Shown: positions 129 to 14,707 of the stretch, piece by piece | Layout: every line of letters starts with the position of its first letter | How positions within the stretch are numbered: the stretch's first letter is position 1 | Origin: Paludibacteraceae bacterium | GTDB lineage: Bacteria; Bacteroidota; Bacteroidia; Bacteroidales; Paludibacteraceae | Assembly: GCA_017557345.1 (NCBI GenBank) | Contig: JAFYZR010000008.1 | Location: 1-41,898 of the forward strand | Length of the DNA stretch: 41,898 nt | Direction: 5' to 3' | Translations under genes and position numbers: made by a program | Notes under the pieces: model-generated | The model's database searches: none | The model's input: the letters and a program-made list of their open reading frames with translations, nothing else | What the model was told of the DNA's origin: nothing

Positions 129-160
129 CTTGTATATGTCAGATTTTTTTTGTACCTTTG
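129..160 (+). promoter_or_regulatory. Bacteroidetes-type promoter of the NUDIX gene
   Basis: A -7 box TACCTTTG lies at 153-160. CTTG at 129-132 sits 20 bases upstream in the -33 position. The form matches the Bacteroidetes sigma-A consensus TTTG-N20-TAnnTTTG. Transcription should begin near 167, giving a leader of about 20 bases with a purine-rich AAGGAG before the ATG at 187. I see no gene in bases 1-128. Confidence 0.65.
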
Positions 161-186
161 CGCAAAATTTGCGCAAGGAGAAACAA

Positions 187-642: not shown

Positions 643-658
643 TTGCACAACAAATATT

Positions 659-1282: not shown

Positions 1283-1302
1283 TTGAGCAGAAAGAATAAA
1301 CA

Positions 1303-1330
1303 AACCGCCAGGCATTGCTGCTTGGCGGTT
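1303..1330. terminator. Bidirectional terminator between convergent genes
   Basis: AACCGCCA at 1303-1310 pairs with TGGCGGTT at 1323-1330, with further pairing towards a TTGC loop. The hairpin lies between the stop of the plus-strand HXXEE gene and the stop of the minus-strand PNPOx gene, so it can serve both. The T tract is weak on either side. Confidence 0.6.
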
Positions 1331-1334
1331 GATG

Positions 1335-1787
1335 TTACTTGGCGAAGCGTTCGCCTACAAACCCATTGCCTGTCTCTCCGGTTATCAGGTCGAAGTGCTT
1401 GAAGATTGGTGGCGTCGGACCGAGGTCGTAATAGTCCAACTCCGCTATTGGCAGCACGAAATACACAAGGTCGGTATAGTGCGCATACAACCGCGGCAGG
1501 ACGGGGTTCGAGTCGTAAATCTCACGCTGCACAGCATCGGGCACATCGAACTGAACCATCCCTGCGCAACGAACGGAAATGCGGTTGTCTGTTGCCAAAA
1601 TCTCGATGTTCGGGTTCGCCTGCAATTGCCGCCACACACCTTTCTTGGGCGAGGTCGCAAAGTACAGCCGGTTGCCTTCCACTTTCATGATTTGGAACAC
1701 CCGCAGTCGCGGGAGATTACCCTCGCACGTGGCGAAGGCAACCTCGTTATGCGTTCTCAAAAAATCCAATGCCGTTTGCATGGTCAC
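1335..1787 (-). CDS. PNPOx-like FMN-binding split-barrel protein
   Basis: This 150-residue protein fits the pyridoxamine 5'-phosphate oxidase-like split-barrel fold. It begins with a short helix (ALDFLRTHNEVAFATCEGNLPRLR in outline), followed by the typical strand pattern through LYFATSPKKGVWRQL and NPNIEILA. Proteins of this size usually bind FMN or F420 and act as small reductases or oxidases; the substrate is unknown. It lies 15 bases after the SnoaL-type lipoprotein gene and is likely its operon partner, both under the promoter at 2728-2759 next to an HxlR regulator. HxlR proteins often respond to electrophile or redox stress, which would suit a flavoprotein target. An alternative start is the second Met, two codons in. 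Confidence 0.85.
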   Translation of the reverse strand: MTMQTALDFLRTHNEVAFATCEGNLPRLRVFQIMKVEGNRLYFATSPKKGVWRQLQANPNIEILATDNRISVRCAGMVQFDVPDAVQREIYDSNPVLPRLYAHYTDLVYFVLPIAELDYYDLGPTPPIFKHFDLITGETGNGFVGERFAK

Positions 1788-1802
1788 AGCGTTTTTAGTC
1801 AG

Positions 1803-2648
1803 TCAAAAACCAAATTTGCCGTTCTCGTTCTTCCACTCCTCACGTGCCGGAATAACCTCAGTTACATCCCAATGCTCGGCAATCTTGCCGTTCTCCACGC
1901 GGAAGAGGTCATAGAAACTCGTGTGCGCACCGCCAAACGAACCTTCGCTCACGCTGAGCACGAAATTGCCCTTGCCGAGGAGCTTATGGTTCGTGTCATA
2001 CACCATCGCCACGCCTGCCTCTGCCATTGCTGCCAGCGCTGCACCCAGACCGTCCAGACCGTCTGCAATCTGCGGGTTGTGCTGGATGTAGTTGTTGCCG
2101 TCGAAATAGGTCGGCAGGTTCTCCGGATGCTCGCCCATGAGCACGTCGTGCACGAAACCGCGAACGATAGCTTTGTTGGCTTCGGTCTTGTCAAGGTCAA
2201 CGATCTCCGTCGTGCCGTCAATCAGCGTGTGACCGCTCGGATTAGCCTGCGCAGGAGTGGTCATCAGGTTGTCCCAATGCTCCACAATCTTACCGTCCTC
2301 AAAACGGAAGATGTCGAAGCCGATCTTCGGACCGAAGAAGTTATACTCGGTCTGTGCCACCACGTAATCGCCGTCCTCAAAGATACGCACGGTGTTCACT
2401 TTGGCTGCCTCGGGGTACTCTGCCAACTGGCCGAGCAACTTACCGAAACCGGCGAGACCGTCCTCTGCGCCGAGGTTGTGTTGGATGTACTTGTCTGCGT
2501 TGATGTAGCCGACGGGTTCTTGTGCTCCTGTCTCAATGCTCTTGAGCACGTCATACACTTTCTGTTCGTTTGTCATAACTTGGTTCTCCTTTTTTGTGCA
2601 GGCTACGATACTCAACGCAGCGGCTGCGATTACGAATAATTTTTTCAT
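1803..2648 (-). CDS. Lipoprotein with two SnoaL-like (NTF2-fold) domains
   Basis: The 281-residue product has a lipoprotein signal, with lipobox SIVAC and the lipidated Cys at residue 17. Two homologous SnoaL/NTF2-like domains follow, about residues 27-140 and 155-270. Each contains a Y-I-Q-H-N motif (KYIQHNLGAEDG and NYIQHNPQIADG) and a matching EDGKIVEHWD or ENGKIAEHWD strand, so an internal duplication is visible. SnoaL-like domains are small-molecule binding or isomerase-like folds with no predictable substrate. It is probably periplasmic or membrane-anchored. It is transcribed divergently from the HxlR regulator and shares a 365-bp intergenic region with it, the classic arrangement for an HxlR target. 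Confidence 0.85.
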   Translation of the reverse strand: MKKLFVIAAAALSIVACTKKENQVMTNEQKVYDVLKSIETGAQEPVGYINADKYIQHNLGAEDGLAGFGKLLGQLAEYPEAAKVNTVRIFEDGDYVVAQTEYNFFGPKIGFDIFRFEDGKIVEHWDNLMTTPAQANPSGHTLIDGTTEIVDLDKTEANKAIVRGFVHDVLMGEHPENLPTYFDGNNYIQHNPQIADGLDGLGAALAAMAEAGVAMVYDTNHKLLGKGNFVLSVSEGSFGGAHTSFYDLFRVENGKIAEHWDVTEVIPAREEWKNENGKFGF

Positions 2649-2727
2649 GATTCTATTTATTTATAATGTTTATGTGCGTGTGTGAGGACTGTCGAAAATC
2701 GTTCATCTATTTTTCTGAAATCCGGTG

Positions 2728-2759
2728 CAAAATTACTACAAATTTCCGACATACACAAG
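2728..2759 (-). promoter_or_regulatory. Promoter of the SnoaL lipoprotein operon
   Basis: On the minus strand a -7 box TAATTTTG occupies 2735-2728 and CTTG occupies 2759-2756, with a 20-base spacer. The start would lie near 2721, giving a leader of about 70 bases. Confidence 0.65.
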
Positions 2760-2775
2760 AAGGCACGAGAAAGTG

Positions 2776-2896
2776 ACTTAGTTACCAAAAAGTAGGAATT
2801 GCGTATTTACTGGGCAAACGAGCAACAAAAAAAATGCACTTTTTTGAAAAATAATTTTGCCTGTTTAGAAACTTAGTATCTTTTGGTAACTTTTGG
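2776..2896. promoter_or_regulatory. Candidate HxlR operator pair in the divergent intergenic region
   Basis: TAGTTACCAAAAAGTA (2778-2793) and CTTTTGGTAACTTTTGG (2880-2896) contain the same GGTAACT half-site in opposite orientations, about 100 bases apart. They lie between the two divergent promoters, next to the HxlR gene. Binding by that regulator is inference. The rest of the 2649-3013 gap holds only the two promoters and A/T-rich sequence. Confidence 0.35.
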
Positions 2897-2905
2897 ACGA
2901 AAAAA

Positions 2906-2937
2906 TTTGGTCATGTCAAATATTTTTTGTAATTTTG
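2906..2937 (+). promoter_or_regulatory. Promoter of the HxlR-sirtuin-macrodomain genes
   Basis: TTTG at 2906-2909 and TAATTTTG at 2930-2937 are separated by exactly 20 bases, a textbook match to the Bacteroidetes consensus. The start would be near 2944, about 70 bases before the HxlR ATG. Confidence 0.75.
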
Positions 2938-3013
2938 CAGCCGAAAATTGAAAATAATCGTTCCCACAAGGGATAAGAAATAAATCGTACATCGTAAAAT
3001 CGTAAATGGCTTT

Positions 3014-3367
3014 ATGCGTAAGATTGTAAAGGAAGTGGATCCGCGCTATTTGGCTTGTCCGATACGCAATGTGATCGATAAGTTCGGCGACAAATGGTCG
3101 CTGCTGGTGCTATATCATCTGAACCAGTACGGAACAATCCGATTTAATGACCTTCGGCGCGATATGGCGGACTGCTCGCAGAAGATGCTTTCGCAGACGC
3201 TCAAACGCCTCGAACAGATCGGTCTGATTGACCGCAAAGTCTATCCCGAAGTGCCACCACGCGTGGAGTACTCGCTTACCGAACGCGGTTACAGCCTGAT
3301 GCCGCACGTGTCAGGACTGATTGGTTGGGCGGCGGAACACATGGACGAGGTGAAAGTTGAAAGTTGA
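3014..3367 (+). CDS. HxlR-family winged-helix transcriptional regulator
   Basis: This 117-residue protein has the full HxlR layout: CPIRNVIDKFGDKWSLLVLYHL at the N terminus, a wHTH with RFNDLRRDM and SQKMLSQTLKRLEQIGLI, then the wing with YSLTERGYSL. Cys15 in LACPIRN matches the conserved N-terminal cysteine that senses disulfide or electrophile stress in HypR and YodB. It should bind DNA as a dimer. Likely targets are the divergent SnoaL/PNPOx operon and its own operon, which may include the sirtuin and macrodomain genes. Its last codons (MDEVKVES) lie inside a TGAAAGT heptamer repeat that continues into the next gene's start. Confidence 0.92.
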   Translation: MRKIVKEVDPRYLACPIRNVIDKFGDKWSLLVLYHLNQYGTIRFNDLRRDMADCSQKMLSQTLKRLEQIGLIDRKVYPEVPPRVEYSLTERGYSLMPHVSGLIGWAAEHMDEVKVES

Positions 3368-3388
3368 AAGGTGAAAGGATGAAAGGAT
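3351..3388 (+). repeat. TGAAAG heptamer/octamer array at a gene junction
   Basis: Five units, TGAAAGT twice, TGAAAGG once and TGAAAGGA twice, run from the last codons of the HxlR gene to the ATG of the sirtuin gene. The units supply purine-rich, Shine-Dalgarno-like GAAAGGA sequence before that start. They are relatives of the CTTTCGA heptamers elsewhere in the window. Confidence 0.75.
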
Positions 3389-4226
3389 GAACGAGATTGA
3401 GCAATTACGGGAGGTGTTGCAGGCTGCAGATGCCGTGCTGATTGGAGCAGGTGCAGGACTGAGTACGTCGGCAGGAATGACCTTGTCCGGCGAACGGTTT
3501 GAGGCGCATTTCGGAGATTTTATCGCCAAATACCACTTTCCGAACGAGTACATCGGCGGCTTCTATGCTTTCCCGACACGCGAGGAATACTGGGCGTATT
3601 GGAGTCGCGTCATCTACTACGGACGCATTCAGATGCCACCCAAACCGGTTTATGAGCACCTCTACCAACTGGTGGCGGACAAGGACTATTTTGTGCTCAC
3701 GACCAACGTGGACCATTTCTTCCAGCGCACCGGTTTCGACAAGCAACGGCTGTTCTACACGCAAGGCGATTACGGGTTGTTGCAATGCCCGACACCTTGT
3801 CATCAGCAGACCTACGACAGCACGCAGATGGCCGAACGGATGTTCCGTGAACAGCACGATATGCGTGTGCCGACCGAACTGCTGCCGAGTTGTCCGGTCT
3901 GTGGAAAACCGATGATTCCGAACCTGCGTTGCGATGAGCGGTTCGTGCAGGACGACGGCTGGTACGCGGCGCAAGAACGCTACGAAGAGTGGCTGGAGAA
4001 CCACCGGACAGGACGCATCGTCTATCTCGACCTTGGCACAGGCGGTAACACTCCGGTCATCATCAAATACCCGTTCTGGCGCTTCACGTACGCCAACCCG
4101 CAGGCGACCTACGTCAGCATCAACCTCGGCGAAGCCTATGCGCCCAAAGAGATTGCCGACCGGTCGATTTGTATCAACGAGGATATAGGGGAGGCTCTTT
4201 TAAAGTTGAAAGGTGAAAGTTCTTAG
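3387..4226 (+). CDS. SIR2-family protein of the macrodomain-linked class (SirTM-like)
   Basis: The 279-residue protein has the sirtuin NAD-binding motifs GAGAGLSTSAG (residues 20-30) and TTNVDH (105-110). Cysteines at 134, 138, 169, 172 and 182 are candidates for the structural zinc site. The usual catalytic His of deacetylating sirtuins is replaced: the motif reads FYTQGDYG with Gln126. Gln at this place, with TNVDH and a neighbouring macrodomain gene, is the signature of class-M sirtuins, which act as protein ADP-ribosyltransferases on lipoyl-carrier GcvH-L in Staphylococcus and Streptococcus. No GcvH-L or lipoate ligase gene lies nearby, so the substrate here is unknown. The C-terminal KLKGESS is encoded by the heptamer repeat. 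The macrodomain gene follows after 44 bases. Confidence 0.88.
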   Translation: MNEIEQLREVLQAADAVLIGAGAGLSTSAGMTLSGERFEAHFGDFIAKYHFPNEYIGGFYAFPTREEYWAYWSRVIYYGRIQMPPKPVYEHLYQLVADKDYFVLTTNVDHFFQRTGFDKQRLFYTQGDYGLLQCPTPCHQQTYDSTQMAERMFREQHDMRVPTELLPSCPVCGKPMIPNLRCDERFVQDDGWYAAQERYEEWLENHRTGRIVYLDLGTGGNTPVIIKYPFWRFTYANPQATYVSINLGEAYAPKEIADRSICINEDIGEALLKLKGESS

Positions 4227-4262
4227 CCCATAAAGGGCACGATTATTTGAAAGGTGAAAGGA
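4205..4262 (+). repeat. TGAAAG heptamers between sirtuin and macrodomain genes
   Basis: Two short runs of the same heptamer family (GTTGAAAGGTGAAAG at 4205-4219 and TTGAAAGGTGAAAGG at 4248-4262) flank the sirtuin stop codon and precede the macrodomain ATG. The second run supplies the likely ribosome binding site. Confidence 0.65.
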
Positions 4263-4270
4263 CTTTCGTT

Positions 4271-5035
4271 ATGGATAAATTGACTTGGCTCATAGATTAT
4301 TTGCTGCGTGAGGAACCGCAGTATGCAGGGACACGTATTCCGGAGAACGTTGACGAGCAGCGGCAGTTGTTGCGTGCGCTGATGAATGTCCGTCCGCCGC
4401 GGCCTGTCTCCGATGAGTTCCTACGTATTCAAGATGCGTATCTTCAGGAGCGCCAACTTGAACGTGGCGTGGTGGAGGCCTCTAAACTCTCGACTCTTGA
4501 CGCTCGACTTTCCCTCTGGCAAGGCGACATAACGACTTTGAAGATCGATGCCATCGTCAACGCCTGCAACAGTCAGATGCTCGGGTGTTTTCAACCTCTG
4601 CACGGCTGCATCGACAATTTTATCCATACATATGCCGGCGTGCAACTGCGCCTGAAGATGCATGAACTGATGCAAGCGCAGGGACACGACGAACCTACCG
4701 GTCAAGCGAAGATCACACCGGGTTACAACCTGCCGGCTTCGTATATCCTGCACACGGTTGGCCCCATCGTGCAAGGTCCGCTGCGACCCGTCCACAAAGC
4801 GCAACTACGTGCTTGTTACCTTGCTTGCCTGCGCCTTGCCGAAGAGAATGGCTGCCGATCTATCGCCTTCTGCTGCCTCTCCACAGGTGTGTTTGGTTTT
4901 CCGCAACAACCTGCCGCCGAGATCGCCATCCAAACCGTCCGTGATTACCTCGCCGCCGGTTCGTCCATTCAACACGTGGTCTTCAATGTCTTCAAAGACT
5001 CCGACCGCGAAATTTATGAAGCGTTACTGAAATGA
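4271..5035 (+). CDS. Zinc-containing macrodomain protein (ADP-ribosyl hydrolase)
   Basis: I start this 254-residue protein at the ATG at 4271, with GAAAGG upstream; a TTG 24 bases earlier is less likely. After an N-terminal helical region (1-80) comes a macrodomain: WQGDITTLKIDAIVNACN (83-100), then GCFQPLHGCID with Cys106, His111 and Cys113 matching the zinc ligands of the SirTM-linked macrodomains. Family members remove ADP-ribose placed by the adjacent sirtuin, so this is the expected eraser. The loop STGVFGFP near residue 218 fits ADP-ribose phosphate binding. Its TGA overlaps the ATG of a 49-codon frame. Cytosolic. Confidence 0.92.
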   Translation: MDKLTWLIDYLLREEPQYAGTRIPENVDEQRQLLRALMNVRPPRPVSDEFLRIQDAYLQERQLERGVVEASKLSTLDARLSLWQGDITTLKIDAIVNACNSQMLGCFQPLHGCIDNFIHTYAGVQLRLKMHELMQAQGHDEPTGQAKITPGYNLPASYILHTVGPIVQGPLRPVHKAQLRACYLACLRLAEENGCRSIAFCCLSTGVFGFPQQPAAEIAIQTVRDYLAAGSSIQHVVFNVFKDSDREIYEALLK

Positions 5036-5181
5036 CCTACGACGAGTACATAGCGCAACAGCAACAAGCGATTGATGAGGAGCAGCAGGACAATGGACTT
5101 CGAGAAATTCCATCCGCTGGCGTTCGATTGGATGAACAAGATATATCTTACCCTGGGCGAGCAAGTAGGCCATGCCTATAA
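5032..5181 (+). CDS. Small overlapping ORF, possibly a frameshifted remnant
   Basis: A 49-codon frame begins at an ATGA overlap with the macrodomain stop and is rich in Gln and Glu (MTYDEYIAQQQQAIDEEQQ). A second frame at 5093-5203 (36 codons) begins MDFEKFHPLAFDWMNKI and continues LTLGEQVGHAYKDG. Joining the first half of frame one to frame two gives a more natural-looking acidic, aromatic small protein of about 57 residues. Either there are two tiny overlapping genes or one gene broken by a +1 shift. I recognise no family. Overlap with the macrodomain stop suggests translational coupling. Confidence 0.35.
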   Translation: MTYDEYIAQQQQAIDEEQQDNGLREIPSAGVRLDEQDISYPGRASRPCL

Positions 5182-5221
5182 GGATGGCGCTGCGCTTCGG
5201 TAAAAGAAAAAATAAAGCAAT

Positions 5222-5887
5222 ATGAGAAAAGTATTATTCACCCTGCTGGCGGCAACCATGATGGTTTCCGCGTCAGCCCAACAGAAAGTGCTCGTGGCGT
5301 ATTTCTCGTTCACGAATAACACCAAGGCGTATGCCGAGAAGATTACCGCTATCACCGGTGGTGACTTGTACGAGATTGTACCGCAAACAGCGTACGGCGG
5401 CGAGAACAGCAACTATTACGACGAGACCACACGTGCCTACAAGGAGCAGTATAACACCGGTGGCGAGCAACGTCCTGCCATCCACGCGACGCTGACCAAT
5501 GCGGCGCAGTACGACGTCGTTTTCCTCGGCAGTCCGATATGGTACAGCAAGTCGCCTCGCGTCATTCTGGCGTTCCTGGACACGTACGGCTTTGCAGGCA
5601 AGACAATCGTGCCGTTCGTGACCTCGGCTTCGACGGGTATCTCCAAGGTCAACGAGGAACTGCCGGCCACATATCCGAATATCTATTGGATAGAAGGCAG
5701 ACGGCTGAATGGCGTGTCCGATGCCGATTTGCAGACATGGGTACAAGGTGTGCTGGAGTCCGCAACAGGCATAGAGGATGTGCAAACCACTCAGTCCGAC
5801 GCGCCTGCTTACACTATGTCCGGCCAGCAAGCACCTGAAGGATATAAAGGTGTGGTGATTCAGAATGGAAAGAAACAAATCAAATAA
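5222..5887 (+). CDS. Exported flavodoxin-like protein
   Basis: The 221-residue protein begins with a Sec signal peptide (cleavage after VSASA, about residue 19), followed by a flavodoxin domain: VLVAYFSFTNNTK as the FMN phosphate loop, GSPIWYSKSPRVILAFLDTYGFAGKTIVPF, and a TSASTGIS loop. Secreted flavodoxins with this layout are common in Bacteroidales; partners are unknown. The C terminus (about 180-221) ends YTMSGQQAPEGYKGVVIQNGKK, resembling a recurrent C-terminal tail of exported Bacteroidales proteins. It is the first gene of a compact plus-strand run of flavoproteins. No clear promoter is visible in the 18 bases after the small ORFs, so it may be read through from upstream. Confidence 0.88.
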   Translation: MRKVLFTLLAATMMVSASAQQKVLVAYFSFTNNTKAYAEKITAITGGDLYEIVPQTAYGGENSNYYDETTRAYKEQYNTGGEQRPAIHATLTNAAQYDVVFLGSPIWYSKSPRVILAFLDTYGFAGKTIVPFVTSASTGISKVNEELPATYPNIYWIEGRRLNGVSDADLQTWVQGVLESATGIEDVQTTQSDAPAYTMSGQQAPEGYKGVVIQNGKKQIK

Positions 5888-5894
5888 CACATAT

Positions 5895-6410
5895 ATGCAA
5901 ATCCTTATTTTACAAGGCTCGCCGAGAGCCAAAGGTAATACCGCTTGGATGGCGGAAGAGTTTAAGAACGCAGCCGAAGCTGCAGGTCATCAGGTAACGC
6001 TCGTCAACGTGGCGCACAAGCATATTGCAGGCTGTCTGGCGTGCGAGTACTGCCACGGAAAGGGCAACGGTGCCTGCATTCAGAAAGATGATATGCAGGA
6101 ACTTTATCCGCTGATGGCTCAAGCCGAAGTGCTTGTGCTGGCTGCGCCTATTTATTACTTTACGCTCAGCGCACAGATTCAGACTCCTATCCAACGGATG
6201 TATTGCGTTAACGCACCGGCTAAGGTAAAGAAGATGGCGCTTTTGATGTCCTCGTATTCGCCCGCAGTCTATGATGGTGCACTCGCCGAGTTCCGCGATA
6301 TCTGCAATTACTGGCAGGTAGAGAACATCGGTCATGTATCCGCGAAGATCGATGAGCAGAAGACCGAAGCAACAAAACAGAAGATTGTGGACATAGTAGC
6401 TAAGTTATAA
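5895..6410 (+). CDS. NADPH-dependent FMN reductase / iron-sulfur flavoprotein-like
   Basis: I start this 171-residue protein at the ATG at 5895; codons back to 5865 overlap the previous gene. It opens with a flavodoxin-like phosphate loop, LILQGSPRAKGNTAWMAEEF. The CLACEYCHGKGNGACIQKDDM stretch (about residues 46-66) then gives the compact Cys motif typical of the Isf/NADPH-FMN reductase group. The loop APIYYF that contacts FMN follows near residue 90. The Cys pattern may bind an Fe-S cluster or be a redox-active remnant. It is likely cytosolic and co-transcribed with the exported flavodoxin 7 bases upstream. Confidence 0.88.
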   Translation: MQILILQGSPRAKGNTAWMAEEFKNAAEAAGHQVTLVNVAHKHIAGCLACEYCHGKGNGACIQKDDMQELYPLMAQAEVLVLAAPIYYFTLSAQIQTPIQRMYCVNAPAKVKKMALLMSSYSPAVYDGALAEFRDICNYWQVENIGHVSAKIDEQKTEATKQKIVDIVAKL

Positions 6411-6452
6411 TTCAGCCAAACTGATTAAAATGATTGAGCCGAAAGAATAATT

Positions 6453-6773
6453 ATGATAGTTACAACCACACCGACCATTGAAGGTCACACGATTAAGGAG
6501 TACAAAGGTCTTGTATCCGGAGAGGTTATCTTCGGTATGAATTTTCTCAAGGACATTGGCGCGTCGTTACGCGATTTCTTTGGAGGACGTACCGAGAGTT
6601 ATGAGAGTGCTATGCTCGAAGGACGCGAGACCGCGCAGAAAGAAATGCTGCAACGCGCTAAGGAGATGGGCGCCAATGCCATCGTAGGAGTTAGCTTTGG
6701 CTACGAGACGATGGGGCAAGGCAACAGCATGATTATGATTTCCATCTCCGGCACAGCTGTTGTGATTGACTGA
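6453..6773 (+). CDS. YbjQ family protein
   Basis: The 106-residue sequence matches the YbjQ family across its length: MIVTTTPTIEGHTIKEYKGLVSGEVI, then GGRTESYE, LQRAKEMGANAIVGVSFGYE and a terminal GTAVVI strand. The family forms pentameric rings and was once called a heavy-metal-binding domain, but its role is not settled. It is full length. Its TGA overlaps the ATG of the next gene by one base, so the two are translationally coupled. A six-codon frame (MIEPKE) ends two bases before its ATG. Confidence 0.9.
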   Translation: MIVTTTPTIEGHTIKEYKGLVSGEVIFGMNFLKDIGASLRDFFGGRTESYESAMLEGRETAQKEMLQRAKEMGANAIVGVSFGYETMGQGNSMIMISISGTAVVID

Positions 6774-6979
6774 TGAAAATCGAGGAGGCAATAACGTATG
6801 CGATCATGTCGGATGGTCATGGAAAGACGACTGACCAGATAGCTGCCGCTATCAACCGCAATGGTTGGCATATCCGTAAGGACGGCAAAACGGTTACCTC
6901 CGCGCAGGTCTATGCCTGCATTTGCCGCTATCCCTCAATCTTTACTAAAGAAGCCGGACGCATTTGTGTAATGTTATGA
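6773..6979 (+). CDS. Small winged-helix (HARE-HTH-like) protein
   Basis: This 68-residue protein looks like one winged-helix module: TTDQIAAAINRNGWHIRKDGKTVTSAQVYACICRYPSIF in outline. The RKDG turn followed by V-T-S-A-Q-V and a Y-P-x-x-F motif recalls the HARE-HTH-like domains attached to restriction and DNA-modifying proteins, but here it stands alone. DNA binding is inference. It overlaps YbjQ at its start and the amylase-like gene at its end (ATGA), so it sits within a coupled operon. Confidence 0.65.
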   Translation: MKIEEAITYAIMSDGHGKTTDQIAAAINRNGWHIRKDGKTVTSAQVYACICRYPSIFTKEAGRICVML

Positions 6980-8703
6980 AAAAGTTATTTACCCTTGTAC
7001 TGGCGGCGCTATCGCTGGCCGCTTGTACCCGACAACAGAAAGACATAGCGGATTCATTTGCCTGGAACAAAGCAACCGTCTATTTTGTGCTGGTGGATCG
7101 TTTCTGCAACGGCGATACCACCAACGACCAGCAATATGGCCGCTGCAACGACTACGGCAGCGAACGAATGAATGCCTCCACCTTTCATGGCGGCGACTAC
7201 GCAGGGCTCTTGCAAAAAGCCAAAGAGGGCTACTTCACCGACCTGGGTGTGGATGTGGTATGGCTGACCGATCCGTACGAGCAGGTGCATGGCTGGGTGC
7301 CCGGTAGCGGTTGGGTGGTCAATGACTTCCCGCACTACGGCTACCACGGTTACTACCCGCTGGACTACACCCAGATAGATAAGAACTACGGCACGATTGC
7401 CGAATACCGCGCGCTGATAGATGAATTGCACGCGCAAGGAATACGTGTTATGGAAGGAGCCAACATCAACGACATCGGTTATCCCACCTATCTGGATGCG
7501 TTGCAACAAGGGTTTGCCTCGGTACCGGGTATCCAAATGGAAGCTGAAGCTGTGAAACACCGCCGCGACATAGACTACGGTGCATGGTTGGAGTCGATGT
7601 ATGACCAACCCGATTGGTACACCACCGAATGGCTGCGCCGGCCTACCGAGACGGACGACCCGTGCCAGATGACCCTGTATGGTCTGCCGGATTACCTGAC
7701 GGAAAAGACGGAACCGGTTTCTCTTCCTACGTTCCTCCATCGCAAATGGCAACGGGAAGGCGATGACAATGATGCTTGGACCTGGCCGGCGATGAAAGCT
7801 TTGCGCAAGGACACCACGCTGGCACCGGACGATTATGTGATACGGTTTATCGCAGCGTGGGTAGAGGAATTTGGTATCGACGGTTTCCGTTGCGATGTGG
7901 TGGGTTACGTGCATCCCTGGCGCTGGAAACAACTGCATGACGCATGTAACGAGGCGCTGAACAGATGGCGTGCCAAACACCCCGAGCAGGCAGCGTCTCA
8001 TTGGACGGACGAAGTCATGTTCACCGGCGATTATGACGATGCGTATATCACACGACTGCCTTTGTACGAAGAGAACGGCTTTAACAGCATGGTGAACATG
8101 GTTTTCCCGAAGGATGGCGACCTGACCACTATCGCGCAGACATGGCAGGCATATAGCGATTCGATGGCGGTATGGCAGGCGGCGGGCTATGCTTGGTACC
8201 CCTTCTCGTACCTGAACAATGCCTATTTCCGCGAAGCGGACATGGAGCACATGGACCTGTGCGCTACCTGTTTCCTGCTCTCACCAGGGGCGGTGCAGAT
8301 CTTCTATGGTGACGAGGTGGCGCGTAAGACGTCAGACGCTATCTTGAATGTGGATGCGGCGCAGGGCTTCCGCAACGACTACGATTGGTCGGCTCCGAAC
8401 GAACCCCTCATGGCGCATTACCGGAAGTTATGCACGTTCCGTAAGGCTCATCCTGCGGTCGGCGCCGGACGACAAACCCTGCTGAACCCCACTACGGTTG
8501 TTCGAACATTGGGCAACGACACAATCGTCATCGCCTTGAATCCGCAGCCCGCGATGGGAATAACCCTTCCCTTTGCTGATGGTACCCACGTCAGAAATGC
8601 GTACAGCGGCGAAACAAGCACTATTCAAAACGGACAAGTGCTGCTCCAACAATCCTGCGGACACGTGGCACTTATCGAGAAAATGAGCATGCTTAATAAA
8701 TAG
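6976..8703 (+). CDS. MalS-like GH13 lipoprotein, catalytic residues degenerate
   Basis: The ATG at 6976 overlaps the previous stop and gives 575 residues with a lipobox LSLAAC (Cys17). The body aligns with periplasmic alpha-amylase MalS: DLGVDVVWLTDPYEQVHGW, HYGYHGYYPLDYTQIDKNYGT, the nucleophile region DGFRCD (Asp307) and FYGDE near residue 445. Other GH13 regions are altered. Region I reads RVMEGANIND, not a DVVxNH motif. Region III reads MFTGDYDD, with Asp352 where the acid/base Glu is expected. Region IV reads SYLNNAYF, not SYLxSHD, losing the third catalytic Asp. The enzyme may be inactive, a glycan-binding lipoprotein, or a divergent catalyst. Likely anchored facing the periplasm or cell surface. 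Confidence 0.85.
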   Translation: MKKLFTLVLAALSLAACTRQQKDIADSFAWNKATVYFVLVDRFCNGDTTNDQQYGRCNDYGSERMNASTFHGGDYAGLLQKAKEGYFTDLGVDVVWLTDPYEQVHGWVPGSGWVVNDFPHYGYHGYYPLDYTQIDKNYGTIAEYRALIDELHAQGIRVMEGANINDIGYPTYLDALQQGFASVPGIQMEAEAVKHRRDIDYGAWLESMYDQPDWYTTEWLRRPTETDDPCQMTLYGLPDYLTEKTEPVSLPTFLHRKWQREGDDNDAWTWPAMKALRKDTTLAPDDYVIRFIAAWVEEFGIDGFRCDVVGYVHPWRWKQLHDACNEALNRWRAKHPEQAASHWTDEVMFTGDYDDAYITRLPLYEENGFNSMVNMVFPKDGDLTTIAQTWQAYSDSMAVWQAAGYAWYPFSYLNNAYFREADMEHMDLCATCFLLSPGAVQIFYGDEVARKTSDAILNVDAAQGFRNDYDWSAPNEPLMAHYRKLCTFRKAHPAVGAGRQTLLNPTTVVRTLGNDTIVIALNPQPAMGITLPFADGTHVRNAYSGETSTIQNGQVLLQQSCGHVALIEKMSMLNK

Positions 8704-8718
8704 TAACCAAAGACCATA

Positions 8719-9246
8719 ATGGAACAGTTTGAAGAACTGATACATGGCGACTTGCAGCAGTATTTGCTGAGCGTGAATGAGGTAGATGAGCGACTGCCGG
8801 AGTGCCCAGATGTGGAAGGCAAATGGGAGGCGATTGCTAATGCGTATATCCCTGATGGAGTGCGTGAGTTTCAAAACTATCCGCTTGCATCGCTTGGTTG
8901 GATGATGTATATCGGAATGGCGTTGGCGAAGATGTGGGATGACGACTGGCAGTACTACGCTGCGAAAGATGACTTGTATGTTTATCTGCGTGACAAACGC
9001 GGCTACGATGCCATGGATGAGTATATCCGCAGAGACGTGCTCAAACTCAAAGGCAAGGATTTTGCTGCGACCGAAGAACTTGTTAGCGAATGTGCCTCAC
9101 GTGTGCATAGCACGCTGATGCATCAGGACATTGAACCGGGAACGAAAGAGGCGTTCCTTGCTTATGTTGCTTGCTTGCATCAGTTGTACCTCTTTGGCGC
9201 CGCTGTACAACTCAAACGCATGGGCTACCACATGACGAGAATATAA
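8719..9246 (+). CDS. Conserved protein of unknown function
   Basis: This 175-residue protein is soluble, acidic and rich in aromatic residues, with motifs such as YIPDGVREFQNYP, LGWMMYIGMALAKMWDDDW and KRGYDAMDEYIRRDVL. It appears mostly helical. I recognise it only as a conserved Bacteroidales-type protein without a named role. It has no signal peptide or membrane segment. It lies 15 bases after the amylase-like gene and 16 before the flavodoxin lipoprotein, so it is probably in the same operon. Confidence 0.75.
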   Translation: MEQFEELIHGDLQQYLLSVNEVDERLPECPDVEGKWEAIANAYIPDGVREFQNYPLASLGWMMYIGMALAKMWDDDWQYYAAKDDLYVYLRDKRGYDAMDEYIRRDVLKLKGKDFAATEELVSECASRVHSTLMHQDIEPGTKEAFLAYVACLHQLYLFGAAVQLKRMGYHMTRI

Positions 9247-9262
9247 AAATCAGATAATTAAC

Positions 9263-10081
9263 ATGAAAAAACTCATGACTATTGCACTGGCTGCGACGAT
9301 GCTCGCGGCGTGCGGACAGAAGAAAGATGCACAAAAGGTGCTGGTGTTGTATTACTCGCAGACCTCGAACACCAAAATGGTGGCAGAGGAGATTGCTAAT
9401 CGACTTAGTGCGGACATCGCGACGATTGAAGCTGTTGTGCCGTACGACGGCGATTTCCATGCGACGATTGAGCGTTGTATGAAAGAGCGGGAGATGGAGG
9501 TGTTACCGGACATCCAGCCGCTGACGGTTGACTTGGCGAAATATAATGTCATATTCCTCGGCTATCCCGTATGGTTCGGCACATACGCGCCGCCTGTGAT
9601 CACATTCCTGACACAGACCGACCTAAGCGGTAAGACCATTGTGCCGTTCTGCACGTTCGGTAGTGGTGGTCTGGAATCGAGCATGAACGATTTGGCAAAG
9701 GTTCAGCCCAATGCAGACATCCGTCCGGGTTATGGTGTACGTGCAGCGCGCTTGCAGGCTGTACCGCAAGAAGTAGAGCGGTTCTTGATTGCTGGAGGAT
9801 TCCTTGAGGGAGAATTGAAACCATTGGCAGAGTTCCCGGAGCAACATCCTGTAAGCGAAGAAGAGACAGTTATCTTCGATGCTGCAGTGAACGGTTATCC
9901 GATGCTTCATGCAAAAGCTGTGACGGTAGCTTTGCGTGCCGGTTACGACGGAACGGAATATCTGTTTGTGGCAGAAGACCTCCCGCGTGAAGGCGCACCG
10001 AAAATGCCCAAGCACGAAGTGCAAGTGTATGTATTAGTCGTTGACGGTCAAGCACCGGTATTCACGAAAGTTATACGATGA
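9263..10081 (+). CDS. Flavodoxin-domain lipoprotein
   Basis: The 272-residue protein has a lipobox MLAAC (Cys17), then a flavodoxin domain (about 25-175): VLVLYYSQTSNTKMVAEEIA as the FMN phosphate loop, FLGYPVWFGTYAPPVITFL, and CTFGSGGLESS. The final 80 or so residues (about 185-272) form an extra domain with HAKAVTVALRAGYDG and a strand-rich end not found in plain flavodoxins. It is probably anchored in the envelope as an electron carrier or quinone/nitro reductase; partners are unknown. It is the third FMN-fold protein in 5 kb. Its TGA overlaps the ATG of the esterase gene. Confidence 0.87.
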   Translation: MKKLMTIALAATMLAACGQKKDAQKVLVLYYSQTSNTKMVAEEIANRLSADIATIEAVVPYDGDFHATIERCMKEREMEVLPDIQPLTVDLAKYNVIFLGYPVWFGTYAPPVITFLTQTDLSGKTIVPFCTFGSGGLESSMNDLAKVQPNADIRPGYGVRAARLQAVPQEVERFLIAGGFLEGELKPLAEFPEQHPVSEEETVIFDAAVNGYPMLHAKAVTVALRAGYDGTEYLFVAEDLPREGAPKMPKHEVQVYVLVVDGQAPVFTKVIR

Positions 10082-10773
10082 AACAATCCATTGCCATCAA
10101 TGGTCGTGAGTGCCTATTGTATGAATGCGGAGAACAGCCGCAAGTGCTGCTTATTCAGCCGCTCGGAGAACATGAGCGAAGCACGATAGACAACGAAATC
10201 GCCCTCATCCAAGAGGCGGTGCATGTGCCGTTCGTCATGGTGGCATTGGCGATTAACGATTGGGAAAAGGAACTCACACCCTGGCATGATCCGAAACTCT
10301 CTACGCGCAAGGAAGTAGGAGACCATGTGTTTGAGACGCTGGACTACATTACCGAACATCTCATGCCGTACACGTTCGAGCGATTCGGCAAACTGCCGGT
10401 AGCGATCGGGGGCTACTCTTTAGCCGGTTTGTTCGCACGCTGGGCAGTATCTAAAGTGGAGTGCTTCGATGCCGTAGCAGCCGCTTCTCCGTCCCTTTGG
10501 ATTGTGGCATGGTGTGGCTTCTCTGACGCTCACGAAGTCTTTACTCGTTATGTCTATCTAAGTCTAGGTGAACGTGAGGAATTAGCAAAGAACAAAGCCA
10601 TTGCACAGGTTGGCAATAATGTCCGCTGGGAGTACGACCATCTACAACGTACCATTGGCGCAGACAACTGCATACTCGAATGGAATCCCGGCAATCATTT
10701 TCTAGACAATGACAAGCGCCTAGCACGCGCCTTCGCCTGGTGCGTGAATAAACTAACTGCGTGCAGCAATTAA
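10078..10773 (+). CDS. Alpha/beta-hydrolase, esterase-like
   Basis: The 231-residue protein has the nucleophile elbow GGYSLAGLFARWA, with the likely catalytic Ser near residue 112, and resembles the putative esterase / IroE-like alpha/beta-hydrolases. Downstream SPSLW and a C-terminal GNHF with a His near 215 fit the oxyanion-side loop and the catalytic His. There is no signal peptide, so it is probably cytosolic. The substrate is unknown. It overlaps the flavodoxin gene by 4 bases (ATGA), and the next gene starts 3 bases after its stop. Confidence 0.82.
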   Translation: MKQSIAINGRECLLYECGEQPQVLLIQPLGEHERSTIDNEIALIQEAVHVPFVMVALAINDWEKELTPWHDPKLSTRKEVGDHVFETLDYITEHLMPYTFERFGKLPVAIGGYSLAGLFARWAVSKVECFDAVAAASPSLWIVAWCGFSDAHEVFTRYVYLSLGEREELAKNKAIAQVGNNVRWEYDHLQRTIGADNCILEWNPGNHFLDNDKRLARAFAWCVNKLTACSN

Positions 10774-10775
10774 GC

Positions 10776-11969
10776 ATGGAAACAGATAGAATCATATTAC
10801 GACCATGGCGGGAGAGTGATGCAGAAGCGTTGTTCAAATATGCTTCTGATCCGAATGTGGGACCTCGTGCCGGATGGCCACCGCATAAGAGCGTGGAAGA
10901 AAGTCTGGAGATAATCCGGACGGTCTTTCACAATGATCGTACATGGGCGATTGAACTCAAGCAGACCGGCGAATCTATCGGTTGCATAGGCTATTATCTG
11001 TATAGAGAAAGCAACATAACCATCGGTGAACATGATGCAGAGGTCGGTTATTGGGTTGCCAAACCTTATTGGAACCAAGGTATATGTTCGGAGTCGTTGC
11101 GTCTGATGATTGACTACTGTTTCCAAGAGCAGCATTTCGAGGTGCTATGGTGTGACTGCTTTGTAGATAATCCAGCCTCTGAACGTGTGATGCACAAATG
11201 CGGCTTCCGCGAAACCGGTGCTTTCAATCTATGTAGCCATCTTTACCTCGGCGACGACCGTCTTGTGAAGATCATGCGGCTGGATGGATCTGCGTATATC
11301 GAGACTAAACTCTTTGCTTCGCAAGACAAGGCGTATGCTGACTTCCAAAGCAAGTTGCTGCCGACGGTTAAGCGCGAAACGATTATTGGTGTACGGACAC
11401 CGGACTTACGCAAAATTGCGAAGCAAATCTGCAAGACTCCTGCTGCGCAAGAGTTCTTGCATAGTTTGCCACATCGCTATTTTGACGAGAACCAATTGCA
11501 CGCGTTTATCCTGTCGGAAGAGAAAGATTTCAACATCTGTATCGCTAATCTAGAGCAGTTCCTGCCGTATGTAGATAACTGGGCGACCTGCGACCAACTA
11601 TCGCCTCGTTGCTTCAAGAAACATAGGACGGAGTTATTACCGTACGTTCGCAAGTGGATGAGGAGCAAACACACCTATACGAAACGCTTTGGAATATGCA
11701 CGCTGATGCGTTATTTTTGGGACGAGGCTTTTCGACCGGAATACTTGGAATGGGTTGCATCTATCAAGTCTGATGAGTATTACATCCGCATGATGCAGGC
11801 ATGGTTCTTTGCTACGGCGCTTGCCAAACAATGGGATGCCACGCTTCCCTATATACAGCAACAGCGTATGGAGAAAGAAACACACAACAAAACCATCCAG
11901 AAAGCCGTTGAGAGTTTCCGTATCGCGGACGAACAAAAGGCTTTGCTAAAGACCCTGCGAGTGAAATGA
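10776..11969 (+). CDS. Fusion of a GNAT acetyltransferase and an AlkD-like DNA alkylation repair domain
   Basis: I start at the ATG at 10776, directly after the upstream stop; a GTG at 10761 is possible. Residues 1-165 form a RimJ/RimL-type GNAT acetyltransferase (RIILRPWRESDAEALFKYA, EVGYWVAKPYWNQGICSESLRLMIDY, FVDNPASERVMHKCGFRETG). Residues 170-397 form an AlkD-type HEAT-like domain of the DNA alkylation repair family (LPTVKRETIIGVRTPDLRKIAK, DENQLHAFILSE, FLPYVDNWATCDQLSP). The acidic residue in VDNWATCD matches the catalytic Asp region of alkylpurine glycosylases. The frame is continuous with no sign of a frameshift. GNAT and AlkD domains usually sit on separate proteins; why they are fused is unclear. 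Confidence 0.88.
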   Translation: METDRIILRPWRESDAEALFKYASDPNVGPRAGWPPHKSVEESLEIIRTVFHNDRTWAIELKQTGESIGCIGYYLYRESNITIGEHDAEVGYWVAKPYWNQGICSESLRLMIDYCFQEQHFEVLWCDCFVDNPASERVMHKCGFRETGAFNLCSHLYLGDDRLVKIMRLDGSAYIETKLFASQDKAYADFQSKLLPTVKRETIIGVRTPDLRKIAKQICKTPAAQEFLHSLPHRYFDENQLHAFILSEEKDFNICIANLEQFLPYVDNWATCDQLSPRCFKKHRTELLPYVRKWMRSKHTYTKRFGICTLMRYFWDEAFRPEYLEWVASIKSDEYYIRMMQAWFFATALAKQWDATLPYIQQQRMEKETHNKTIQKAVESFRIADEQKALLKTLRVK

Positions 11970-12556
11970 AAAAGATTCTATTCCTACATGGCTTTTACGC
12001 AAGCGGACAATGTGTTCCGGCAATTGCGTTACTCGAAGCATTCGCAGGGCGTGCCGATGTGCTGACACCGGACTTGCCCATGCATCCGCAGGACGCGCTA
12101 TGTTTCATTCGCGAACTAATAGATAGCGAGAAGCCCGACTTGCTGATAGGGAATAGTTGTGGCGCTTTCTATGCGCAGATGATTGCTCCTGTTGTGGACA
12201 TTCCTGCTTTGCTTGGTAATCCGCATTTTCGAATGTCAGAGTTCCTAAAGCAGCGCATAGGTCAGCACGAGTATAAATCGCCGCGCAAGGATGGCAAGCA
12301 ATCATTCGTTATAGATGAAGCCTTGGTTGAAGAGTTTGCTGCACTGGAGGCAACTCAATTCGATAACTGCAATCCTCAATTCAGCGATCAAGTGTGGGGA
12401 TTATTCGGTGAGCAAGACACTTTAGCGCATTTCGAATCGCTCTTCTTAGAGCACTACAACCGTTCATTCCATTTCCCCGGAGGACATACTCCCACCGCTG
12501 ATGAAGTCCGCACATGGTATGTGCCGTTGGCAGAGAAGATGTTAACTGAACTATAA
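11966..12556 (+). CDS. YqiA/YcfP-like alpha/beta-hydrolase
   Basis: This 196-residue protein opens with ILFLHGFYASGQ and has the nucleophile elbow IGNSCGAFYAQ, with the candidate Ser near residue 53, in the pattern of the small YqiA/YcfP esterase family. GLFGEQDTL supplies the acidic-residue region and PGGHTPT the catalytic His near residue 171. No natural substrate can be inferred. It overlaps the GNAT-AlkD gene by 4 bases and is the last gene of the plus-strand run that begins at 5222. A hairpin terminator lies 70 bases downstream. Confidence 0.85.
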   Translation: MKKILFLHGFYASGQCVPAIALLEAFAGRADVLTPDLPMHPQDALCFIRELIDSEKPDLLIGNSCGAFYAQMIAPVVDIPALLGNPHFRMSEFLKQRIGQHEYKSPRKDGKQSFVIDEALVEEFAALEATQFDNCNPQFSDQVWGLFGEQDTLAHFESLFLEHYNRSFHFPGGHTPTADEVRTWYVPLAEKMLTEL

Positions 12557-12625
12557 TACACAAACGAGGTGTGAGGCGTTTGCTGTTTACTATCTAAATC
12601 ACTTTGACGTGTCCCGTTTCCGTCG

Positions 12626-12668
12626 CTACCGCGCTTTTCGTGATGAAACGTGCGGTAGTTTTGTTTAT
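12626..12668 (+). terminator. Rho-independent terminator after the plus-strand gene run
   Basis: CTACCGC at 12626-12632 pairs with GCGGTAG at 12652-12658, and pairing continues inward (TTTC with GAAA). It is followed by TTTTGTTT. It ends the operon before the repeat array. The overlapping TAGTTTTG (12656-12663) also fits a -7 box on paper, without a good -33 partner. Confidence 0.7.
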
Positions 12669-12669
12669 A

Positions 12670-13036
12670 GAAGACCTCAAAGGCGCGCGAGCGCAAGCGG
12701 ACTTGTGAGATGCGCGGAGCGGTTGAAGACTCGCGAGGTCGGAGAGTAAACGGAGACTTTTGAGGTCGCAAAAAGAGAAGACTTTCGGCACTCAAAAATG
12801 GAAGACTATTACGCGCGAAAAATGAGGTGACTTTTGAGGCTATTTTGGAATAGTGGAGACCTATCAATTTCATGCACAAAATGCGACTTGTGATGTAAGA
12901 AAATGAGTGAGACTTTCGTCCTAAAGATTTGAGCCGACTTCGGCAATAAGTTGAAAGTGTTGACTGCATATTCCGCTCAAAAAGAGCCGATTTTGGGCAA
13001 ATTAAGCAGGGCGGTTGGGGCTCTCCAGAGGGAAAA
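12670..13036. repeat. Degenerate tandem array with a period of about 26 bp
   Basis: A GAC-centred core (consensus GRAGACTTTYGAGG followed by an A-rich tail) recurs with GAC at 12673, 12700, 12728, 12755, 12780, 12804, 12829, 12858, 12885, 12911, 12936 and 12962. GAT follows at 12989 and a weaker unit near 13013. Spacings are 24-29 bases. The spacing is not a multiple of three and the plus strand is not open, so the array is not coding. Units share 8-14 bases around the core and differ elsewhere. The array lies between convergent genes, downstream of the terminator at 12626 and on the 3' side of the recombinase gene. Confidence 0.75.
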
Positions 13037-13062
13037 GACGAAAGATTTTGCTATCTTTCGTC
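13037..13062. repeat. Perfect 10-bp inverted repeat at the end of the array
   Basis: GACGAAAGAT (13037-13046) and ATCTTTCGTC (13053-13062) are exact reverse complements around a 6-base centre. The left arm's GAC falls 48 bases (two periods) after the last clear array unit, so the repeat closes the array in phase. There is no T tract on either side, so a terminator is unlikely. Confidence 0.7.
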
Positions 13063-13134
13063 GCTATCTGGCTTATTTACAGCGATTTATGATTTTATAG
13101 ACCGGAAAAACGGAATAAAATGAAAATCTTTTAG

Positions 13135-13169
13135 CACGAACACGCCAATTTTTTCAACGAGTGTTCGTG
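13135..13169. repeat. Perfect 9-bp inverted repeat with 17-base spacer
   Basis: CACGAACAC (13135-13143) and GTGTTCGTG (13161-13169) are exact reverse complements. They lie in the gap between the array and the recombinase terminator. The size and spacing would suit a recombinase or regulator binding site. An 11-bp direct repeat, GACCGGAAAAA, occurs at 13100 and 13276 on either side. Confidence 0.6.
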
Positions 13170-13234
13170 TATTTACAGGGGCGCACGAATTTTCTCCCTA
13201 CGCGCGCGTTCCTAACTTAATACGAATATACAAA

Positions 13235-13274
13235 AAAAGAAGCAGTATTCATGTCCTTGAACGCTGCTTCTTTT
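13235..13274 (-). terminator. Terminator of the recombinase gene
   Basis: AAAAGAAGCAG (13235-13245) pairs with CTGCTTCTTTT (13264-13274) around an 18-base loop. On the minus strand, the direction of the recombinase gene that ends at 13292, the stem ends in a T run. Confidence 0.75.
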
Positions 13275-13291
13275 CGACCGGAAAAAAGCTC

Positions 13292-14509
13292 TTATTTTAC
13301 CGGACGGAAACTGGTGCCGCACGAACGTATTTTCTCTATCATATTCGGGTCAATTTTACGAGCATATTTCATGGTCGTTGTGACATCTTGGTGACCAGCT
13401 GCCTGTTGTACCAGATGGATGTTCATATTATGGTCATCAATCATCTCGGTTATACCGTCATCCTTGAACGAATAGAGTTGCATTTCTTGCGGCAGGTGGA
13501 GTGCTTCACGTATCTTCATCCAGTCTTTCTTATACTTGCCGTGATAAGCCGGAGCCTCAGACGGAACATACTCGGTGCCTAACAGGTAATAATCCTGCGG
13601 ATACTTCTCCAAATGCATAGCTTTGAGACGTTCAATCAGTTCAGGTGATAGGGGCGCAGCACGCTCAATATGCGTCTTCGCTTTCTCTACCGGAATAAGG
13701 ATGTAACCTTCGTCCAGATGGATGTCACGTAGCTGAATAAGCGCAATCTCTTTCGGTCGGATGAGCGAGTAGTAAATGAGCATGCAGACGAGAATGTAGT
13801 TCGGCATGTTTTCTTCGCAGTAGTCGAAGATCTGACCACGAACTTCTGCCGGGATCAAACCACGGCGTTTCTCTTCTTTCTGCTTGGTTTTAATACGCTC
13901 AAACGGGTTCTCTTTGCAGTAGCAATGTTCCTCGAACCAACTGAAGATGGCGCGATACTTCTTGAGGTAGGTGTTCCAAGCGTTAGCAGACAATGCTTTG
14001 CGTGGCTGTTTCTTTTGCGCCTTTGCCTTTCGGATCTCTTCCTCTGTTGGTTCCGTAAAGAGGAAGTCCATGAAGCGAACCGCCAAAGCATGGTTGAACA
14101 TCGAAGCCGGACAGTCGGGAGAATGCAGTTCTTCGACGATCCAGTTGTTAAGGATGCTGAGAACCGATTTGTACGCTACCATCGTCGATTGACGTAACTC
14201 GCGTTTCTTAATACTGATGAACTCTTCGGTAGCTAAGTTCATCGGCTTAAAGAGGGAAGCATTCTGCTGCTCGATAAGCGGAGTCCAACCACCGGCTAAT
14301 TTAAGATTGATGTCTTGCACCATCTTATCCGCATAAGAACGGAAGTCGTTAAGGCGTTTAAAATTCTCGCGTACACCATTTAATTTGGTGCGTACACGTT
14401 CTAACTTGTTTGTGACTGGGGAATACACGTAGTACAGAATGTACCAACCATTGGTGTCGTGTTTCAGTGTCGCGGGTTTGTAACCCAAAATTTCTAAACG
14501 ATTTTTCAT
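13292..14509 (-). CDS. Tyrosine recombinase with atypical catalytic box
   Basis: The 405-residue protein has an N-terminal arm/core-binding part (to about 215, with a charged insert at 152-172) and a C-terminal tyrosine-recombinase domain. R251 in LIRPKEIALIQL is the first catalytic Arg, K278 in VEKAKTH may be the beta-hairpin Lys, H373 in AAGHQDVTTT and Tyr382 in MKYAR follow. The usual HxLRH box is replaced by LYSFKDDG (345-352), so the His and second Arg positions are Tyr346 and Lys349. Some Bacteroidetes recombinases carry similar changes; activity is uncertain. It is transcribed away from tRNA-Gln, 127 bases downstream of it, as for integrases at tRNA sites, but no other mobile gene is next to it. 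Confidence 0.88.
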   Translation of the reverse strand: MKNRLEILGYKPATLKHDTNGWYILYYVYSPVTNKLERVRTKLNGVRENFKRLNDFRSYADKMVQDINLKLAGGWTPLIEQQNASLFKPMNLATEEFISIKKRELRQSTMVAYKSVLSILNNWIVEELHSPDCPASMFNHALAVRFMDFLFTEPTEEEIRKAKAQKKQPRKALSANAWNTYLKKYRAIFSWFEEHCYCKENPFERIKTKQKEEKRRGLIPAEVRGQIFDYCEENMPNYILVCMLIYYSLIRPKEIALIQLRDIHLDEGYILIPVEKAKTHIERAAPLSPELIERLKAMHLEKYPQDYYLLGTEYVPSEAPAYHGKYKKDWMKIREALHLPQEMQLYSFKDDGITEMIDDHNMNIHLVQQAAGHQDVTTTMKYARKIDPNMIEKIRSCGTSFRPVK

Positions 14510-14551: not shown

Positions 14552-14636
14552 TTAGCCATGAAAATATTTTTTGACCCGATTTTGACACGGCCTTTTTTGA
14601 GGAATACCCCGTGAGGCCAGTATTTATCGGACTTTG

Positions 14637-14707
14637 TTGCTCAACCAGGACTCGAACCCAGACAGACAGAACCAGAATCTGTAGTGCTACCATTACACCA
14701 TTGAGCA
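14637..14707 (-). tRNA. tRNA-Gln (CTG anticodon)
   Basis: A complete 71-base cloverleaf can be folded. The acceptor is TGCTCAA with TTGAGCA, with discriminator A. The D arm is GTGT with GCAC, and the anticodon arm ACAGA-TTCTGGT-TCTGT with CTG at positions 34-36. The T arm is CTGGG-TTCGAGT-CCTGG, with two wobble pairs. CCA is not encoded. The 3' end faces the tyrosine recombinase gene, the usual geometry for integration at a tRNA. Confidence 0.95.

Follow-up and report, generated by a model that had tools for sequence, protein, structure and literature searches.

What the degenerate array of short GAC-centred units beside a tyrosine recombinase gene is, and whether it serves that recombinase, is the question raised by a 41,898-nucleotide contig of a Paludibacteraceae bacterium (the whole stretch analysed, hereafter the window). 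An earlier sequence-only reading had proposed arm-type sites, a cassette array built by the recombinase, iteron-like sites or a decayed tandem duplication.

The array is the variable part of a larger non-coding element

The array (12670–12964, plus strand) consists of RRACY/GACY units 24–29 bases apart, as seen from spacing and unit comparison. All twelve GACs listed in the sequence-only reading were confirmed with this spacing, at 12673, 12700, 12728, 12755, 12780, 12804, 12829, 12858, 12885, 12911, 12936 and 12962; the GAT described after them is present, but at 12990, one base off the 12989 given. Within 12660–13062 the longest GAC chain at 24–29 spacing has 12 units, compared with a mean of 1.4 and a maximum of 4 in dinucleotide shuffles (n = 1,000; 0/1,000 reached 12) and a longest chain of 3 in the rest of the window on both strands. 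Tandem Repeats Finder did not report the window array, even at a score of 30. Among 162 units from 12 loci, gathered by their GACY, the preceding base was A in 75% and a weak tail followed; gaps in ten loci were mostly 24–30 bases, with some GAC sites placed at half steps, as 13 gaps measured 13–15 bases.

A coding array, also dismissed in the earlier reading, was rejected: the period is not a multiple of three, and a 171-codon minus-strand frame that spans the array, parts of which are still open in close relatives, is not kept; because units are swapped and lost between loci, we take this frame for chance. A CRISPR-type array was rejected as well, as it needs near-identical repeats of fixed length, whereas here GACY alone is strongly shared and spacing is 24–30 bases. 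The array lies between two inverted repeats that had been noted as terminators, namely a hairpin with a T run (12626–12662) and an inverted repeat found by inverted-repeat search (13235–13274, minus strand), the probable terminator of the integrase gene.

We found that the array is the variable part of a larger non-coding element of ~0.45 kb, at about 12626–13112. Its 5′ boundary, read from the sequence, is the first of these hairpins (CTACCGC/GCGGTAG, plus strand), which contains a TACCGC motif. With exact duplicates (first 60 or 50 bases) removed, TACCGC occurred within 1.1 kb before the conserved end in 40 of the 45 distinct elements that could be assessed and its reverse complement in 14 of 45. 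RRACY chains at 23–31 spacing, counted after the same removal and leaving out elements with less than 400 bases upstream, were significant on the forward strand in 29/48 distinct elements and on the reverse strand in 1/48, related elements included; in 19/48, cores and spacing were not significant. True GAC arrays belong mainly to Paludibacteraceae loci. Among Prevotellaceae phages, some carry GAGACC or GAAACC units and others no clear units, and best-4-mer periodicity was significant (at most 5/100 resamples) in 8 of 30 loci picked mainly for lacking GAC arrays.

Units that multiply by slippage and then decay, as in a neutral minisatellite, would account for higher-order duplications in three loci (L049, L059, L063) and for near-identical units in L194. 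This explanation is nevertheless barely credible: GACY is held while the rest of the unit drifts (partly by construction, because GAC was required to collect the units), and the units lie on the same strand beside the same end. Plain decay of a tandem duplication is disfavoured too.

The 3′ end of the element (12961–13076, plus strand) is conserved, and we described it by a covariance model, R1, built from six sequences. It runs, in order, through CATATTCCGC, 24–40 variable bases, CAGGGCGGTYGGGG and two hairpins, P3 and P4; the blocks recognised by sequence comparison in the window are CATATTCCGC at 12967–12976 and GCAGGGCGGTTGGGG at 13006–13020, both on the plus strand. P3 (13021–13030, plus strand) has a stem of at least 3 pairs in 33/39 elements (letter shuffles: mean 13.1, maximum 20), and P4 (13037–13062, plus strand) one of at least 6 pairs in 39/39 (shuffles: mean 3.4, maximum 10); related loci are included in both counts, while L069 (chance), L058 (deletion), and L016 and L130 (near-identical) are not. 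In the window P4 pairs 13037–13046 with 13053–13062 at 10/10 positions, and is the perfect inverted repeat that had been said to close the array. An additional conserved stretch (13077–13112, plus strand) ends near GACCGGAAAAA, and islands whose integrases differ stay homologous as far as 13110.

The element might instead be a structured non-coding RNA, made of array and hairpin end, that regulates or counters the development of the phages in which it also occurs (see below), and that would act in islands as a regulator, a decoy or a phage defence. This fits the one-strandedness of the RRACY units and the pairing of P3 and P4, which is kept while the stem sequences change, giving many different stems. 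Among 32 distinct P4 stems (L069 and L058 left out) the mismatches were 7 A–C, 1 G–T and 1 C–T; the seven A–C and one G–T fit G–U pairs of a minus-strand RNA and give a weak hint of one, although the bias comes from partly related stems. Against an RNA, Rfam matched tRNAs alone in the window and, in L017, L049 and 12500–13320, no family above cut-off except a tRNA in that set; RNAalifold returned 0 pairs on a 34-row MAFFT alignment, which leaves the P3/P4 helices unaligned; and the hairpins might equally act in DNA. We consider the RNA reading possible but rather unlikely.

Several loci carry further features near the array. In L017 (4201–5850), and also in L055–L057 and L066, TACCTCCGGTGG / TACCTGCGGTGC units form a second array, which is placed before the GACT array or substitutes for it. 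Upstream of the conserved end in L194 there is an almost homogeneous 28-base array with GAGACC / GTAACC cores that looks recently expanded. A tRNA-His gene with a host-like promoter stretch is situated between phage lysis genes and the array at L049 4929–5001, and just upstream in L060.

The element faces integrases in islands and precedes a tail gene in phages

A blastn search with 12560–13290 in 61 genomes (36 other genus members and 24 genomes of other families) matched 8 genomes including its own, all within the genus. Related copies keep the 5′ hairpin and the 3′ end, and their middle units differ in number, order and content, the between-locus variation about which the earlier reading had asked; some island pairs have their first units in common and then diverge. 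R1 matched 29 places in 22 of 101 genus genomes, of which 16 adjoin a convergent tyrosine recombinase and 13 lie in phage surroundings. Five of these recombinases are of the window type and nine belong to a second type (81–100% identical to the L010 protein); one more is at 48% to the second type, and the last is a remnant, judged as such by eye (L013). In phage surroundings, 11 of the 13 elements are directly upstream of a tape-measure gene, mostly after genes for an amidase and a small lipoprotein; the remaining two (L062, L068) belong to another phage type without an adjoining tape-measure gene. An order-wide pattern search matched 3 of 393 genomes, one of them outside the genus (G407), and the reversed control pattern matched 2.

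Both contexts recurred in a pattern scan of a named genome collection. Among its 53 matches, the element precedes a tape-measure gene in 25 and faces an integrase in 22; L194 faces an IS66 transposase, the sequence following the match is too short to judge in L174, L199 and L202, and L172 and L176, from other phyla, are probably chance. The counted loci include broken or short frames (integrase in L178 and L195, tape measure in L180 and L187) and, in L182 and others, frames that end at the edge of the stretch analysed. The facing integrase is similar to the genus types in 21 of the 22; that of L191 (Bacteroidaceae), with tRNA-Asp behind it, has the same Pfam domains and no BLAST similarity to the others. 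These counts and those for the genus are not additive, because many records are the same genomes. Records with the element come from bins of Paludibacteraceae, Bacteroidales, Prevotellaceae and Bacteroidaceae, for the most part of rumen and hindgut origin, and also from Leyella stercorea DSM 18206, in whose genome the element stands before a tape-measure gene (L184).

The phage carriers are a group of temperate Bacteroidales siphophages with the element before the tape-measure gene, assigned by PF10145 and by the PHROG tail tape measure. We found the tape-measure protein at 30 IMG/VR loci. In 19 of these the record includes the start of the gene together with 1 kb or more before it (the same or near-identical phages being among them), and 16 of the 19 carry the conserved end, exact or altered, mostly 190–400 bases before the gene and in L126 about 850 bases before it. 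The conserved end is absent upstream of the gene in 3/19 (L132, L133, L137); the L137 record has a match elsewhere to a loose viral pattern, which gave many evident chance matches and was left out of the counts. Fourteen such phage records contained a terminase match in 12 and a tyrosine integrase in 13, which in all of the 13 but G502 lies near one end and is encoded on the other strand from the tape-measure gene, kilobases from the array; the element is also far from the terminase gene. In an annotated collection of isolated phages, 38 records matched the tape-measure protein, all below 60% identity and none over more than 80% of its length. Tandem repeats inside a tape-measure gene, reported in PMC8143477, are different from the present element.

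These contexts bear directly on whether the units are arm-type or other recombination sites of the adjacent recombinase, or cassettes assembled by it. In islands the array is always near the integrase, and unit content varies by locus, with the same first units followed by different ones, as either version of this idea would have it. Both versions, put forward in the sequence-only reading, are very improbable because in phages the array stands before the tape-measure gene and kilobases separate it from the integrase; moreover, integrases without BLAST similarity face the same end, and the att repeats are located in the tRNA. The positional link to a recombinase proposed earlier thus stands for the 16 non-phage loci, one of which keeps a remnant only, but not in phages, where arrays adjoin the tape-measure gene. 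Of the two outcomes that the reading had named as speaking against it, a lack of periodicity is not seen, the array lying far above shuffled sequence, but arrays do occur with no adjoining recombinase, so the array is not tied to one.

The recombinase belongs to an island at tRNA-Gln as its integrase

The recombinase gene (13292–14509, minus strand) encodes a tyrosine integrase of 405 aa, matching PF00589, PF13102 and the PHROG integrase. It had been called 'lone'; rather, an island at tRNA-Gln has it as its integrase. The tRNA-Gln (CTG) gene was predicted at 14636–14707 (minus strand), 127 bases from the integrase. A candidate attR core of 30 bases from the tRNA 3′ end (14635–14664) was found by sequence match to have an exact copy without a tRNA on contig C10, and the motif CGATTTTGACACG (14578–14590) is, by eye, common to the candidate left end on C10.

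A tRNA lies beyond the integrase in 14/16 genus loci, at 76–256 bases where the integrase is intact; ARAGORN found none in L009, and the L058 contig ends too early to show one. This tRNA is Gln (CTG) where the integrase is of the window type, Asp (GTC) or Leu (GAG) where it is of the second type and Pro (CGG) in the 48% case. In a check of named genomes, 7/7 integrase-type loci had a tRNA (including Lys in L192 and Asp in L191), compared with 0/5 tape-measure loci. Five types of integrase, located at tRNAs for Gln, Leu, Asp, Pro and Lys, retain this layout. Integrase dN/dS in four pairs was 0.013 (window integrase versus L054), 0.036, 0.049 and 0.053, with dS saturated in the last two, showing that the integrase is under purifying selection. 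Relatives of the window integrase at 35–43% face phage-like genes in L111–L115, and in IMG/VR no relative of the island integrases was confirmed. L015 has a partial copy of the tRNA-Gln 3′ end between integrase and tRNA; a search for a second att copy inside single contigs, up to 24 kb, found none.

A candidate far end carries a repressor-like gene and a primase

Contig C10 of the same genome holds two more copies of the tRNA-Gln 3′ end. The copy that is identical over 30 bases follows a host gene and a terminator, no tRNA comes after it, and it probably marks the far end of the window island. We infer from such matches that the two ends, the element side on the window contig and the C10 arm, belong to one element; they sit on separate contigs of a metagenome bin whose contamination is 6.84%, and none of the contigs analysed contains both. 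Left and right island ends have short motifs in common, as judged by eye. Two genomes have an intact tRNA-Gln with ~143 bases to its left that match C10 (90% in G002, 81% in G066) and, to its right, genes that match the window (81% across 1391 bases in G002, 74% across 1491 bases in G066); by this comparison, both are probably sites without the island.

Inside the C10 repeat we found an HTH repressor-like gene, a DnaG-type primase, ArdA, ZacA/B/C, WYL, ADP-ribosylglycohydrolase and type I restriction genes, and a PHROGs search of 19 of the 20 ORFs there, the middle of the island being outside this view, returned no head, tail or packaging family; no structural or lysis gene was recognised in these ORFs or in the window cargo searched. 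ZacA/B/C together with type I restriction genes were also noticed as a feature of this candidate left arm (G000:C10; L332, L333). In G064 and G110 a matching 30-base tRNA-Leu repeat stands where there is no tRNA, and homologues of the HTH and primase genes come next; G064 has ArdA there as well. A candidate attL with an HTH gene and a DnaG-type primase therefore occurs in three genomes (G000, G064, G110), and the repressor–primase left end is common to two different tRNA sites, Gln and Leu. A search for the tape-measure protein found a homologue in G014 and G064 and none in G000 and G110, so that island and phage occur together in one genome, G064.

Islands of this kind could be decayed prophages in which element and integrase survived by chance. 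The order of element and integrase is that of a prophage right end minus the tape-measure and tail genes, and the G101 island matches the phage L120 in array, end, integrase and flank. However, the layout is constant across several integrase types and tRNAs, the repressor–primase left ends are retained, and the integrases are mostly intact and under purifying selection, a few being broken (L013, L178, L195); we judge this origin improbable.

The islands may be satellites that share a mobilisation signal with helper phages

The architecture of the islands is satellite-like, a conclusion that is fairly well supported: a site-specific integrase stands beside a candidate att site, and a repressor and a replication gene stand beside the candidate attL in three genomes, their linkage to the element side being deduced from the matching repeats. 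Island integrases differ, yet the element stays beside the integrase, and therefore we suggest that something from the phage acts on it. From these sequence comparisons, we put at an even chance the reading that the tRNA-integrated islands are phage satellites sharing a cis-acting mobilisation signal with helper phages. The islands would keep the element as the site on which helper-phage machinery acts in cis, most likely in packaging or replication initiation, and the island, once excised, would then be packaged or copied. Proteins would bind at the RRACY units, and the hairpin end would be the start structure. A cis-acting packaging or replication signal is the function we would prefer, with an RNA as its main rival, and an iteron-like site, as raised earlier, is possible. 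For a packaging site, a location far from the phage terminase gene would be unusual, which counts against that role.

When four islands were compared with 21 phage pieces, they had in common the element, the stretch of the integrase and short matches resembling tRNA promoters; the G064 island also had a WYL-type gene in common with G014. Because islands and phages also share the integrase stretch, the WYL-type gene and ArdA, common descent of whole modules is possible. We propose, tentatively and at about one chance in three, that a previously undescribed Bacteroidales phage element, with a TACCGC boundary, a one-stranded RRACY ladder and a two-hairpin end, has been acquired by islands with several different integrases and would let them travel with helper phages. 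It would be a novel RNA, or a novel signal for packaging or helper recognition, with a changing ladder and a core that is held.

Relation to known systems

Iteron-type origins and terminase-bound packaging sites likewise have several short direct repeats beside a structured region; here, by contrast, up to 25 loosely conserved units with variable spacing lie beside a tail gene. Tycheposons, in other hosts, are tRNA-integrated islands with a tyrosine recombinase and cargo, as here, and we know of no such array in them. They are named in a review (PMC11389934), which also describes cos/pac-like motifs in common as a mark of helper and hitcher pairs.

PICI-type satellites and PICMIs (PMC10111431, PMC10803314) resemble the islands in their integrase, divergent repressor, primase, probable tRNA att site and defence cargo, and in the parts of the islands searched no structural gene was recognised either. 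In the present islands, unlike these, integrase and repressor would be at opposite ends of a likely larger element, helper dependence is a proposal from sequence, and a repeat-array element is shared with phages. Other tRNA-/tmRNA-integrated islands (Islander, PMC4383910; islands transduced by jumbo phages, PMC12595487) are alike in having a tyrosine integrase beside the target gene, direct repeats, and accessory and defence cargo, whereas the present islands have a particular non-coding element in common with a group of phages. GOLLD and ROOL, large structured phage RNAs (PMC12286853), are also conserved structured non-coding stretches linked to phages, but the present element has no Rfam match, a much smaller conserved core and a variable array upstream. 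In our literature search (other papers and preprints lay outside its scope), we found no description of the element, nor of satellites in Bacteroidales.

The element offers a sequence handle on a likely phage-satellite family of rumen and hindgut Bacteroidales, and connects islands that bear genes for restriction and other defences with particular phages as their candidate helpers. As a conserved non-coding element of a large phage group, its role as DNA or RNA is testable.

Accessory genes of the window island

On the far side of the element from the integrase, a run of accessory genes (85–12556, plus strand), forming the island's cargo side, was annotated from Pfam and PHROGs as NUDIX, HxlR regulator, Sir2-like, macro domain, flavodoxins, alpha-amylase, a GNAT/DNA-alkylation fusion and UPF0227; in the ORFs searched there, neither database returned a head, tail or packaging family. 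By eye, these genes almost abut and point towards the integrase, and no common attC-type site was noticed at their junctions. Sharp-bordered, gene-sized modules (187–638, 6442–6773, 8716–9246, 10771 and 11307) are reshuffled or absent in related islands, and the module at 187–638 is joined straight to 6442 in G064, G003 and L015. The right part of the window holds CTTTCGA heptamer repeats at 26784–26813, 29133–29162, 30378–30396 and 32306–32335.
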